Assembly: GCA_021815365.1 (NCBI GenBank)
Contig: JAKAGZ010000003.1
Coordinates: forward strand, 1-64,000
DNA: 64,000 nucleotides
Source: Bacteroidota bacterium
GTDB lineage: Bacteria; Bacteroidota; Ignavibacteria; Ignavibacteriales; Ignavibacteriaceae
Direction of reading: 5' to 3'
Under the pieces are notes generated by a model that was not told the DNA's origin, made no database searches, and saw nothing but the letters and a program-made list of their open reading frames with translations. Positions within the stretch are counted from its first letter, which is position 1; each line of letters starts with the position of its first letter. This document shows, in pieces, positions 3,586-62,687 of the stretch. A program made the position numbers and the translations under genes.

Positions 3586-3589
3586 AAGA

Positions 3590-3638
3590 CCTCAGGGGTT
3601 TTTTGTGCAGCCGCCGCTTCGTGGGAGAACCCCTGAGG
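3590..3638 (+). terminator. Perfect 11-bp inverted repeat after rpmB
   Basis: CCTCAGGGGTT (3590-3600) pairs perfectly with AACCCCTGAGG (3628-3638). The 27-nt loop starts with TTTT and is GC-rich. It lies 5 nt after the rpmB stop and probably acts as a terminator or 3'-end hairpin. There is no T-run after the right arm, so intrinsic termination is not certain. Confidence 0.55.
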
Positions 3639-3659
3639 ACTTACCTCCTAACTTCAATT

Positions 3660-28533: not shown

Positions 28534-28560
28534 TCAATTAATAAACGAAAAGTTAACTAT

Positions 28561-28585
28561 AGGGGAGGGTCTGAGACCCTCCCCT
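28561..28585. repeat. 25-bp palindrome, copy 2
   Basis: AGGGGAGGGTCT (28561-28572), one centre base, AGACCCTCCCCT (28574-28585). The arms are identical to the copy at 25694-25718; only the centre base differs (G instead of C). It sits between convergent genes and could terminate both. Confidence 0.75.
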
Positions 28586-28663
28586 ATAATGTATAATTAA
28601 AATTCCAGACCTATCTGTTCATTTGTCATTGCTGACAAGTATATTGTATAGACCACATTCTTA

Positions 28664-33978: not shown

Positions 33979-36900
33979 TTAAAATTCAAACTTATATTTT
34001 AAGCCAAGTTCATTTACCATCTGGCTTGTGTTATTTGTCTGTGTTATAGCTTCCTTCCTTTCCAGGCGTAAGAGCAGCTTCTGGAAAAAAGGATACTCAA
34101 TTTTTACATTAGCCCGGCTCAGGTCTGAAAACACATCGGTAGTGCCTCCGAAGCTGTACCTGAAATTATTCACCCTGCCCGAGAGGTTGAATCTTGTATA
34201 AGAGCCAACGCTTCTGAGTTCCACACTTCGGACATAATCTCCGGCATAAGAGTTTAAAAATCCTCCCAGCAAAGACCCGGCTATAGAGGAGGCTGTGCCG
34301 GTAAATGCATTATTTTGTGAGGAGCCGGAGACAAAGCCTCCCTGTTTACCAAGAAACTGACCAGTAACAATAAATGTAACTGCGTCCGAAGCATCTTTTG
34401 TTTTATCAGGAATATCATTTTCAATATTATCCGAACCATAGTAAACAGCAAGATTATTTTCATTCTTTATAAAATTTTTCCCGAGATCTTTTAATGGTCC
34501 CTTTAATTTTAATTTAACAGCAACTTCAACTTCATTAGATGATTTGCTTGAATCTGCTGACGGAGGATAATAATAATTTTTATATGTCGCAACGATATCC
34601 AGATAAGGATTAGTCAGTTCATTTTCAAAACGTAATGATCCTTCTGCCTGAAATGTTTTTGTAAGAAATTCCAGCGTAGAACCTTCAACAAGTTTAAGCT
34701 CACCAACAGCATAAGGATGATCGTTAATACGCTGAAATTTAAAATCACCTTTTAATGCGGTAGTTAATATCTGGTTAAATTCCTGGTCAAGTACAAATGT
34801 GATCTTCGCTTCTTTCTCAATAGAAATACTGATCGAATAATCAAATTTACTTTTCCCGGAGGGCTTTACTCTTACACTTGAGCTTCTCTGCTGTGACAGC
34901 GCAATCAGATTTTCGAACCCTATTTCCCTCTTTCTGGCTGTAGTAGTGTCCGTCGTATATTTGTAAATAAAATTAGCTGCACTGTTCCTGTAACCTCTCT
35001 GTGCCTGTGGTATTGTAAGATCTGCGCTGACTACTGTTATTGGTGCTTTTAAATAGGCACCCGTAGAATCTATTGTAAATTCTGTTTTACCATTTGTAGC
35101 TACAACAAGATCACCATATAAACCCGGGCTTGCAGCCTTAGAGGCTTCACTTAAAATCTTTAACTGTCCATTCAAATAAAACTGAGAAGAAGTCAATTCA
35201 AAATTTTTCAGTGTTGCTCTTCCGCTTCCTGTCATCGAACCGCCGTTTGGCGTTCCCGCTGCATTCTGAACTAATAAACTATCAAGAACAACAGATTGAC
35301 CCGCAAGATTTATCTTTACACCTGCATTATATTCAAGATTATTTGTTTCGGAAATAAAATTTAATCCGTTAATTCTGATAAAGCCATAAGGGTCAGGCTC
35401 TGAAAAGCTGCCCTTAATGTTAAGTCCGGCAAATAGAAATCCGCTCACTTTTTTAAACTGGGGCAGCATATCGCCCAAAATGCTCAGGTTAAATTCTTCA
35501 GCTTTAATTTTCAAATCCATGCTCTTTTCACTCAGCAGCCTTTCCCCGGCGCCGGTAAAAGCAAAATCCATAGGAATATTTCCTGATATTCTTAAAGGAG
35601 TCCTGACTTTAGAGTTAAGTGAATCAAGGAAAAGAATATTCAAGCCCAGGTTTTTATCACGATACTGCCAACTGCTTGTCAAACGTCCCAGCATTTTATT
35701 TTTAAATGAAATGCTGTCAACGTCAAGCTGCATATTTATTTCCGGCTCAGTATAATTTCCATTTATTAATGCTGATAAATTAATATCTGCACCGGGACTA
35801 TTTGCTGCACTCAGCTCTGCGAAATTTGATGCGAGGTCTTTGCCTTTAAAATTGTTAAGAGTAACAAGCAAATTCTGGCTGCCGTTCCTCAATAAATTAC
35901 CTTTAATATTCAAACTCCCCTCGTTTCTGACCATTTGAAAATTTGTAAAATTTATTTCATCATTTGAAACTGAAAATACCAAATTGCCTTTGTTGTGTAT
36001 GTTAAAATCATTGTATATAATTCCAAGCGTATCAAGCACAAAATCTGCTTTGTTTTGTGAAAGATCAATCTGCCCCTGCAGCTTTGCCAGCAGATAATTT
36101 TCTAACCCTCCTGAAAATTTTATGTTGGCTTTGCTCCTGTTAAGCGAGAGGCTGAGCAAAAAATTATGTATATCGCTGCCTGTGAAAACCCTGTTGGTAG
36201 CTAAATTAATTTTAGCAGAAATGTCATCAATGTTTTCGGCATAAAAACTGTTTGAGAGATCAAGACCAAGTTTCATCTTCGAAAGAAAGAAAATATCTTT
36301 CGGTCCCCAGAATTTCAGGTATTCCAGGTTAGTATTTACTGCAATGTGAACGCTGTCGTTTGAGTTATAAATTTTACCGTTGATCTGCCCGTCAATTTCG
36401 AGTTCATTCCTCAGAAAAATAGAGATCAGGTTGAAATCTTTTAATTTAATATTAAATGTAAATCCATTGTCCTGATCCACACTGCTGAATCTTGTAATTG
36501 CCTTTTTGTTTTTCAGCAACTGTGATTTTTTAATGACCGGGCTTGTCGCAAAGCCCCTCAGGTCTCGGCGATCCGTCAGACCTCGGCGGTCTGCCGAGGT
36601 CGACGGACGATCAATCCTGAAAGAAACCGTATCTCTGCCGAGAAGCTGCTGAATTTTATTATCAGAAACACTCGTCAATAAGCCGGCTTCATCTGTAAGC
36701 AAAGAAATTGTTTTGGGAAGCGAGAATTTTCCATTGACAGAAATATCTGCTAAGTCTGATGTGATGTTCAGTGATTTTTGCTCGTTATCCAGGCTCATAA
36801 TATTGAATGTCATTTTACTGCTGTCGATCTTAACATTGTTCATTACCGAATTTGTAACTACCAGGCTGAGGTAGAGATTCATCTTATCCGGGTCGAGGTT

Positions 36901-38592
36901 TTGTCCTGTACCATTCAAATAAAAATTTAAGATGCCGCTGTTGTGCGGGTCATTAAACATCTTAGAATAATCCAGGTTTCTCACTGTGCCTTCAATATCG
37001 TAACCGGGATTTTTTTCATCTGTAAAATCAAAAATGCCGGAGAGACTTGCTGTTGAAGTATCTGAACTGGCTTTTAAATTATATAAAATATTCTTTTTGT
37101 CGGCATTTACTGTCAACCTAAGGCTGTCCATTTTAATCCCGCTGATAACTGAACCATCTGCAGAAATGGAAAGATCTGCTGTGAGATTTTTAGGAGAGGT
37201 GCCGGTTCCTTTTATCTTACCGTAGGTAGTAAGTTTTGTTGATAAACCAAGAATCGGGAGGGCATCGAAATTGAATGTTGAAAAATCAAAGTTATAACTT
37301 GCCAGTGGTTTTTTAAAATTCGCACTGCCTTTTGTATATATATCTCCTGCGCCGGTTTTCAGATAAATTTTTGTTTCAAAATCTAACGGGCTGCCGTCAA
37401 AATTAAGAGTATCTATCTTTATTTGTCCAAGTTTTTCATAATCAGGAACATTTAAGTCCGGCAGCAGCTTAACAATATCCGGCCCATTAATATATGAATT
37501 TAAGAAACTCAGTTTCAGGTTCAGATTTTTTGGTTCATCTAAATTATGGACCCAGCCTTTAGTCTGCAGATGAGTATCAAGATATGTTAGCTCCAGCCCG
37601 CTGATTAAAATATCATTCATCTTTCCTGAAAGATTTGTGGAAACCTCTGCTCTACCTGCCGAATTCCTGAACACTGAAACGAAAGCCCCTAAGTCCTGCA
37701 GATCTATTTCTCCGTCAACATCAGCGGAGACAAAAGATTTTTTTAACTCCGCCGTGCCTGTAGTATCAAAAACATTATAGTTTTTTAACTGTGCAGTAAG
37801 TTTAATTTCAGAACCGCCGGTTTGAATTTTTAAATCCTCTGCAGCAAGCCCTTTTTCATTTACCTTTAGTTTTCCTGAAATATTTTTAATATCAAAATTG
37901 TTCAGGTTAGGGGTAAATGATAATTTATTCAGCTCCGCCTCAAATTCATTATCAGTAATATTTACAGAAGCGCTCAGATCAAGATTTATATTTCTGATTC
38001 TCAAATCGTCCAGGTTCAATGAATCATAATACTCTGTGCTGTTTGATTTTTTATAACTCTGAAGAGTAAAGTTCACATTTTTCAGCGCAAAGTCAGGAGC
38101 TACAATTGTAAAAGGAAATCTGGAATGGGCTGTATCTTCAGGCGCCGGTTTAATTAGCTTGGATAAATTTAGTCTTCCTGTACTGTCTTCAATAAATTTT
38201 ATATCAGCATTGGCAATCTCTGCTTTCCTGATATAAATTTTCTTTAAAAAAATCTCGAGCGGGCTGGTTTTTACTTCTATCTTTTCTGCGTTCAAAAGGG
38301 TATCGCTTTGCATTGTAATAACGGTGTTCCTCAAAGTAAGTGTGGTAAATATTGTCCCCCTCAGTTCGCCGATGGAAAGTTTACCGTTGATTGAATTATT
38401 TACATTATCCACAATGAAGTCTTTAAGGTAATTTCTGAAATATGCAGTCTGGCTGGTCGCAAAAAAAACCATGAACAAAGCAAGCAGCACTATGCCGGAA
38501 TACAGGAATACATTTACTATCCGCTGAAGAAGAGTTCTTTGTTTTCTTCCACGGGTATTATCACCGGGTAATATTTTTTTTCTGCCAAGCAC
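33979..38592 (-). CDS. tamB: TamB-family translocation/assembly protein with an in-frame palindromic insertion
   Basis: 1537 residues: a single N-terminal membrane helix (FLYSGIVLLALFMVFFA), a very long beta-helical repeat region, and the conserved TamB (DUF490) C-terminal domain, about 1170-1537. TamB bridges inner and outer membranes and helps outer-membrane protein insertion or lipid transport. Around residues 659-682 the sequence RPSTSADRRGLTDRRDLRG looks foreign. It is encoded by a GC-rich palindrome (see the separate entry). The protein ends NELGLKYKFEF, with a terminal aromatic as is usual. The hldE genes lie just upstream in the same transcript. Confidence 0.92.
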   Translation of the reverse strand: MLGRKKILPGDNTRGRKQRTLLQRIVNVFLYSGIVLLALFMVFFATSQTAYFRNYLKDFIVDNVNNSINGKLSIGELRGTIFTTLTLRNTVITMQSDTLLNAEKIEVKTSPLEIFLKKIYIRKAEIANADIKFIEDSTGRLNLSKLIKPAPEDTAHSRFPFTIVAPDFALKNVNFTLQSYKKSNSTEYYDSLNLDDLRIRNINLDLSASVNITDNEFEAELNKLSFTPNLNNFDIKNISGKLKVNEKGLAAEDLKIQTGGSEIKLTAQLKNYNVFDTTGTAELKKSFVSADVDGEIDLQDLGAFVSVFRNSAGRAEVSTNLSGKMNDILISGLELTYLDTHLQTKGWVHNLDEPKNLNLKLSFLNSYINGPDIVKLLPDLNVPDYEKLGQIKIDTLNFDGSPLDFETKIYLKTGAGDIYTKGSANFKKPLASYNFDFSTFNFDALPILGLSTKLTTYGKIKGTGTSPKNLTADLSISADGSVISGIKMDSLRLTVNADKKNILYNLKASSDTSTASLSGIFDFTDEKNPGYDIEGTVRNLDYSKMFNDPHNSGILNFYLNGTGQNLDPDKMNLYLSLVVTNSVMNNVKIDSSKMTFNIMSLDNEQKSLNITSDLADISVNGKFSLPKTISLLTDEAGLLTSVSDNKIQQLLGRDTVSFRIDRPSTSADRRGLTDRRDLRGFATSPVIKKSQLLKNKKAITRFSSVDQDNGFTFNIKLKDFNLISIFLRNELEIDGQINGKIYNSNDSVHIAVNTNLEYLKFWGPKDIFFLSKMKLGLDLSNSFYAENIDDISAKINLATNRVFTGSDIHNFLLSLSLNRSKANIKFSGGLENYLLAKLQGQIDLSQNKADFVLDTLGIIYNDFNIHNKGNLVFSVSNDEINFTNFQMVRNEGSLNIKGNLLRNGSQNLLVTLNNFKGKDLASNFAELSAANSPGADINLSALINGNYTEPEINMQLDVDSISFKNKMLGRLTSSWQYRDKNLGLNILFLDSLNSKVRTPLRISGNIPMDFAFTGAGERLLSEKSMDLKIKAEEFNLSILGDMLPQFKKVSGFLFAGLNIKGSFSEPDPYGFIRINGLNFISETNNLEYNAGVKINLAGQSVVLDSLLVQNAAGTPNGGSMTGSGRATLKNFELTSSQFYLNGQLKILSEASKAASPGLYGDLVVATNGKTEFTIDSTGAYLKAPITVVSADLTIPQAQRGYRNSAANFIYKYTTDTTTARKREIGFENLIALSQQRSSSVRVKPSGKSKFDYSISISIEKEAKITFVLDQEFNQILTTALKGDFKFQRINDHPYAVGELKLVEGSTLEFLTKTFQAEGSLRFENELTNPYLDIVATYKNYYYPPSADSSKSSNEVEVAVKLKLKGPLKDLGKNFIKNENNLAVYYGSDNIENDIPDKTKDASDAVTFIVTGQFLGKQGGFVSGSSQNNAFTGTASSIAGSLLGGFLNSYAGDYVRSVELRSVGSYTRFNLSGRVNNFRYSFGGTTDVFSDLSRANVKIEYPFFQKLLLRLERKEAITQTNNTSQMVNELGLKYKFEF
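36560..36612. repeat. GC-rich palindromic element inside tamB
   Basis: GACCTCGGC (36579-36587), loop GGTCT, GCCGAGGTC (36593-36601). The stem extends by TCCGTC (36572-36577) with GACGGA (36602-36607), interrupted by one bulged A. A related GGTCTCGGCGATCC lies immediately to the left. The composition contrasts sharply with the AT-rich gene. It keeps the tamB frame open and encodes an Arg/Asp-rich stretch. Confidence 0.75.
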
Positions 38593-62642: not shown

Positions 62643-62687
62643 AGAAAGATGACATCTTTTAAAATCAAAAAAAGATGTCATCTTTCT
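62643..62687. terminator. Perfect 18-bp hairpin after ilvE
   Basis: AGAAAGATGACATCTTTT (62643-62660) pairs exactly with AAAAGATGTCATCTTTCT (62670-62687). It shares the GATGACATCTTTT core with the element at 60354-60450. It sits 9 bp after the ilvE stop, so it probably also ends the ilvE transcript. Confidence 0.7.

Follow-up and report, generated by a model that had tools for sequence, protein, structure and literature searches.

How does a GC-rich palindrome come to lie within the reading frame of a tamB-like gene, and does the protein make use of the residues that it encodes? The locus belongs to a 64-kb window (the whole stretch of DNA that was analysed), and its features are collected in Table 1 together with the other copies and contexts discussed below. 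In our judgement, this segment of tamB very probably belongs to a family of dispersed mosaic palindromic repeats that are non-coding (miniature elements of the REP/RPE kind), one copy of which was inserted here in a linker that varies in length. The relatives searched, all of them from other genera, do not have the insert; the repeat is dispersed, the frame is kept, and five other intact genes carry copies in frame.

Table 1. Features of the tamB locus (window positions), genes with in-frame copies, and contigs or loci of related palindromes.
Feature	Location	Strand	Sequence or remark
tamB-like gene, 1537 aa, intact ORF	33979-38592	-	NF047952 TamB, E 7e-21, below curated cut-off
Whole palindromic repeat element, 73 bp	36548-36620	+	Head GCAAAGCCC, tail GATCAATCCTGA
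Possible small head hairpin	36539-36556	+	GGGCTT-gtcgca-AAGCCC; suggested by the fold and by heads of other copies
"Outer" unit, left arm GCAAAGCCCCTCAGGTCTCGGCGA	36548-36571	+	95% identity to 91-bp consensus over 59 bp
Hairpin with 15-bp stem	36572-36607		TCCGTC(A)GACCTCGGC-ggtct-GCCGAGGTCGACGGA; 6+9 bp, one bulged A, 5-nt loop
Stem, 5' arm	36572-36587	+	TCCGTC A GACCTCGGC; bulge is A36578
Loop, 5 nt	36588-36592		GGTCT
Stem, 3' arm	36593-36607	+	GCCGAGGTC GACGGA
Tail	36602-36620	+	GACGGACGATCAATYCTGA; end common to most copies
In-frame internal copy, TPR/transmembrane/AraC regulator, 618 aa			Linker following membrane helix
In-frame internal copy, methyltransferase, 254 aa			~15 aa extra relative to relatives
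In-frame internal copy, BamA-like Omp85 protein			First strand after signal peptide; 26 aa extra relative to relatives
In-frame internal copy, mnmA, 365 aa			12 aa extra relative to relatives of <=75% identity
In-frame internal copy, lptD			Just past signal peptide; carries nested second palindrome
The 19 loci of the repeat, by contig	C3, C6, C19, C44, C56, C64, C73, C75, C76, C78 (two), C83, C94, C96, C97, C98, C103, C107 (two)
Long palindrome of G051 with 31-bp hairpin in loop	L142, L144, L146, L150, L151, L153		Ends like CTTACGCAA.../...TTGCGTAAG

An earlier note on this DNA had described a 15-bp stem, lying in frame in tamB, of composition opposite to that of the gene and coding for an Arg/Asp-rich peptide, and all four observations hold. 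The stem, with its bulged A and 5-nt loop, and the intact minus-strand ORF are given in Table 1; the GC content is 0.65 at 36548-36618 versus 0.376 across the tamB-like gene; and TamB residues ~658-682, RIDRPSTSADRRGLTDRRDLRGFA, are encoded by the element (minus strand). No 53-bp stretch of the window is richer in GC than the one that begins at 36553. The extent proposed in the note, 36560-36612, encloses the hairpin but not the full element, whose left end may even be at 36539, because other copies have similar T-rich/GCAWAGCCC heads. A 23-nt core pattern, sought in the window with at most three mismatches, has no second match there.

The tamB-like protein finds matches in all 40 relatives searched. 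When the relatives' tamB sequences are aligned, as the note had recommended, ~25 residues are extra here and have no counterpart in any of the 29 relatives of the alignment, although this count is approximate because the linker at the insertion site varies in length anyway. The element probably has no function in TamB. In-frame insertion is seen in tamB and at least five further genes, with ~12 to 30 amino acids added in each, and for each of the four genes compared (tamB, mnmA, the BamA-like gene and the methyltransferase gene) the relatives are without the insert. The MnmA segment is absent also from solved MnmA structures. In a structural model of MnmA (pLDDT 85.6), the insert forms a turn that connects strands 129-134 and 149-154 and has pLDDT <50 at 143-146, while the rest of the fold is confident. 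This decorated mnmA is the sole mnmA in the genome.

A search for the same hairpin elsewhere in the genome, also recommended in the note, recovered other copies both in genes and in gaps. With this result and the tamB alignment, the note's insertion reading withstood the two refutations that the note had named. A 101-bp query gave 21 matches, the 91-bp consensus gave 27, and a covariance model gave 33 overlapping matches, which were merged by hand into ~19 loci. Six of these are in frame inside intact genes, two are at gene ends, and the remainder are intergenic, including copies just before a pgk-like gene (C75) and just before a yicC-like gene (C76), and nine others. At one of the two gene ends (C97; L104 1495-1575), the element bridges two genes: the upstream ORF takes its TGA stop from the tail, and the body, which follows an in-frame ATG at the beginning of a miaA-like gene, would encode ~24 N-terminal residues of the miaA-like protein. 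At the other (C6), the element terminates a sodium-symporter ORF. For miaA, the symporter, pgk and yicC the names are presumptive, assigned by recognition of the sequences. The intergenic copies at L110, L096, L023, L111 and L039 are linked to a further palindrome that recurs, AATAACTTGCTAAGTTATT.

Comparison of the copies reveals a nested architecture. The shortest complete unit is ~55 bp long and consists of a head (GCAWAGCCCGTC), a hairpin (GGTCTCGGC-agacc-GCCGAGGTC) and a tail (TGACGGAYSRTCAATTCTGA). In a second form (C96, C98) the bulge is on the opposite side, and the 91-bp long form is a second-form unit with an inverted first-form unit in its loop. Relative to the L021 and L022 sequences, the tamB copy is the 91-bp form minus 18 bp between two CTGCCGAG direct repeats, and it is the absence of these 18 bp that leaves a 15-bp hairpin. 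In four other copies the loop holds another nested palindrome instead, TCGTCGAGTCCGCTCGTTCCGGCAGAACGGAGTTCTGACGAAGCAGACTCTACGGAGTCTGACGA, which is full in C94 and C6 and present as variants in C83 and C76. The repeat is thereby a mosaic of palindromes, nested and with interchangeable loops. A 31-bp part of the second palindrome also occurs at eight places in G051, from another genus, with 94-100% identity, and in the copies read it is mostly situated in the loop of a different, unrelated long palindrome (Table 1); the assignment to G051 is uncertain because the estimated contamination is 8%. Tentatively, and we consider this rather unlikely, there may be a new "Russian-doll" class of repeats, whose units would insert into the loops of other hairpins, swap loops across unrelated repeat families and genomes, and be moved by a putative, possibly hairpin-targeting enzyme, repeatedly adding segments to housekeeping and envelope proteins. 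The nested, loop-swapping build is a lead on the growth and movement of such palindromes, among them the CGTC-type repeats, for which no transposase is known.

BLAST found the 91-bp form in none of 40 relatives, and the covariance model, which is more sensitive, found a homologous family (CCCGTCGGTCTCGACAGACCGACGAGGTCTGTCGGAT, five copies, none of them inside a long ORF) only in G053, from another family of the order. Weak covariance-model matches in other relatives (E >0.1) were on inspection mostly not the repeat. A scan of 84,980 species genomes with one exact pattern gave three high-GC actinobacterial matches, which we take as chance, and none in Rickettsia.

Several other explanations of the element were weighed. 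The probability that the hairpin is due to chance, or is an artefact of the assembly (a draft of 110 contigs), is negligible: on both strands it folds ~5 SD better than dinucleotide shuffles (z ~ -4.6), none of 200 shuffles folds equally well, and the ~19 copies are in distinct unique contexts, with ORFs reading through six of them. So stable a fold, and the location of several copies directly before or after genes, would suit a structured RNA or regulatory hairpin whose RNA fold is the conserved feature, e.g., one that acts in mRNA stability or transcription. This is very unlikely, however, since the stem has no compensatory changes (no pair is altered on both sides), the loops and nesting are strongly variable, copies lie inside unrelated genes in either orientation, and ten copy-bearing loci scanned yielded no Rfam family for the repeat. 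It is just as improbable that selection favours in-frame insertion of the repeat as a source of a peptide, or that the peptide is functional in TamB, even though the six internal copies are in frame in intact genes and usable frames without stops exist. The note had proposed selection for frame-neutral insertion, but the 91-bp element has three of six frames open, compared with a mean of 2.8 in shuffles of the same composition (P 0.60). The register also differs between genes: tamB, the TPR/AraC gene and lptD read the exact core CCGAGGTCTGACGG in phase 2, the methyltransferase and BamA-like genes read it in phase 0, and mnmA reads the opposite strand. The sites are variable linkers, loops, or regions adjoining signal peptides, and the copies are mostly intergenic; bacterial genomes are mostly coding. 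With three registers, no excess of open frames and no compensatory stem changes, there is no support for selection on either frame neutrality or a peptide. The use of several registers supports the view that the segments are not selected peptides but tolerated by-products of spread at the DNA level, and the gene copies fit surviving insertions, that is, insertion at the DNA level followed by loss of the disruptive ones.

A further alternative concerns the mobiliser. The genome contains one RAYT-like gene (G000:C6:18576-19142; NF047646, E 1.9e-17), and the repeat might be the cognate REP of this REP-associated tyrosine transposase, moved in trans as in a REPtron system. One copy does lie ~120 bp downstream of the gene, and the repeat's core GACCTCGGCGGTC resembles the RAYT-flanking AACCTCGAAGGTC at 10 of 13 bases. 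Nevertheless we regard this as quite unlikely. The copy is on one side only, beyond the AACCTCGAAGGTC palindromes, and with 19 copies in the genome one near the RAYT may be chance; the NF047646 score is under the curated cut-off; and there are relatives that have RAYTs but not the repeat. Moreover, the direct flanks of the RAYT on both sides (L082, G000:C6, 1387-2143) are a different palindrome, AACCTCGAAGGTC...GACCTTCGAGGTT, and in relatives the RAYTs that resemble it most carry comparable palindromes, of AACCTCCGAGGTT type, at their flanks. Because flanks of the same style occur here and in relatives, these palindromes are the likely partners, and on this comparison of flanking sequences the cognate REP of the C6 RAYT is probably the AACCTCGAAGGTC palindrome. 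The ends of IS200-type tnpA genes, of which the genome has two that are intact, were rejected as a source of the repeat, with flanks that share only chance matches of 9-10 nt with it.

If the tamB insert is a copy of a dispersed palindromic repeat, as we prefer, a simple scheme can be proposed. Copies would spread as DNA; a putative transposase would probably move them in trans, in the form of single-stranded hairpins, and the element would land in gaps and genes alike. The gene insertions that survive would be only those that are a multiple of three in length, free of stops, and in a loop or linker. The GC-rich element provides three or four usable frames and encodes a short hydrophilic segment rich in Arg, Asp, Ser and Pro.

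In-frame palindromic inserts are classical in Rickettsia (PMC10969869), whose RPEs are short palindromic repeats found in gaps and, at tolerated places, in frame in unrelated genes (PMC10969869, PMC3733652). The earlier note considered such inserts rare elsewhere, which is too strong, as many bacterial species are described as having GTAG and CGTC REPs inside genes (PMC3733652). The CGTC REPs are without a known dedicated transposase and include RPE-4 and RPE-6 (Di Nocera et al. 2013, PMC3733652); they are reported from Chlorobi and Bacteroidetes among others (PMC3733652). Like the RPEs, the present repeat consists of dispersed short palindromes with in-frame inserts in unrelated genes (six intact ORFs here), but it comes from another lineage, with no sign of shared sequence in the one-pattern scan of species genomes, its inserts are mostly shorter (12-30 aa) and in at least three registers, and it has a nested mosaic build with exchangeable loops. 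Like the CGTC REPs, it has a ~9-bp stem and a 5-nt loop beside CGTC, and intragenic copies. The CGTC of those REPs is an unpaired tetranucleotide at one end, however, whereas here it is base-paired to GACG, both in the fold and in the structure of the consensus. The published stem of 8-9 bp and loop of 4-5 nt are matched by the 9-bp inner stem and 5-nt loop, but the first pairs are G-C (G-U in other copies) rather than A/T, the tail is GACGGAYSRTCAATTCTGA rather than a short unpaired CCA-like sequence, and nested palindromes make the loops larger.

GTAG REPs and REPINs with their RAYT are similar in being multicopy palindromes with paired or nested inverted units and a copy near a RAYT, but the GTAG (or GYRG) tag is absent from the consensus head and tail here, the RAYT is flanked by other palindromes, and the copy number is low (~19). 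Bacterial MITEs (e.g., ERIC, Correia/NEMIS) are likewise short, non-autonomous and sometimes fused into ORFs, but the present ends differ and in most copies match as terminal inverted repeats only over CCGTC/GACGG. The flanks of the two IS200-type tnpA genes gave no related insertion sequence, and no target duplication was seen in the copies of this genome. The repeat works like RPEs and CGTC-type intragenic REPs, yet fails the published CGTC and GTAG signatures. Literature searches found nothing relevant on nested palindromes or on repeats of this palindromic kind in Ignavibacteria. The phenomenon is known, while this repeat family and lineage appear new, and together they constitute an independent case outside Rickettsiales of palindromic DNA becoming protein segments in conserved genes (mnmA, lptD, tamB, BamA-like).

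The window contains other palindromes. Perfect 18-bp arms, AGAAAGATGACATCTTTT/AAAAGATGTCATCTTTCT, lie in an intergenic gap at 62643-62687, and a very similar motif flanks RAYT genes of the relative G001 (L132, L133). Two more GC-rich palindromes are found outside genes, at 28558-28588 and 3586-3642 (TATAGGGGAGGGTCT... and AAGACCTCAGGGGTT...AACCCCTGAGGACTT, respectively).
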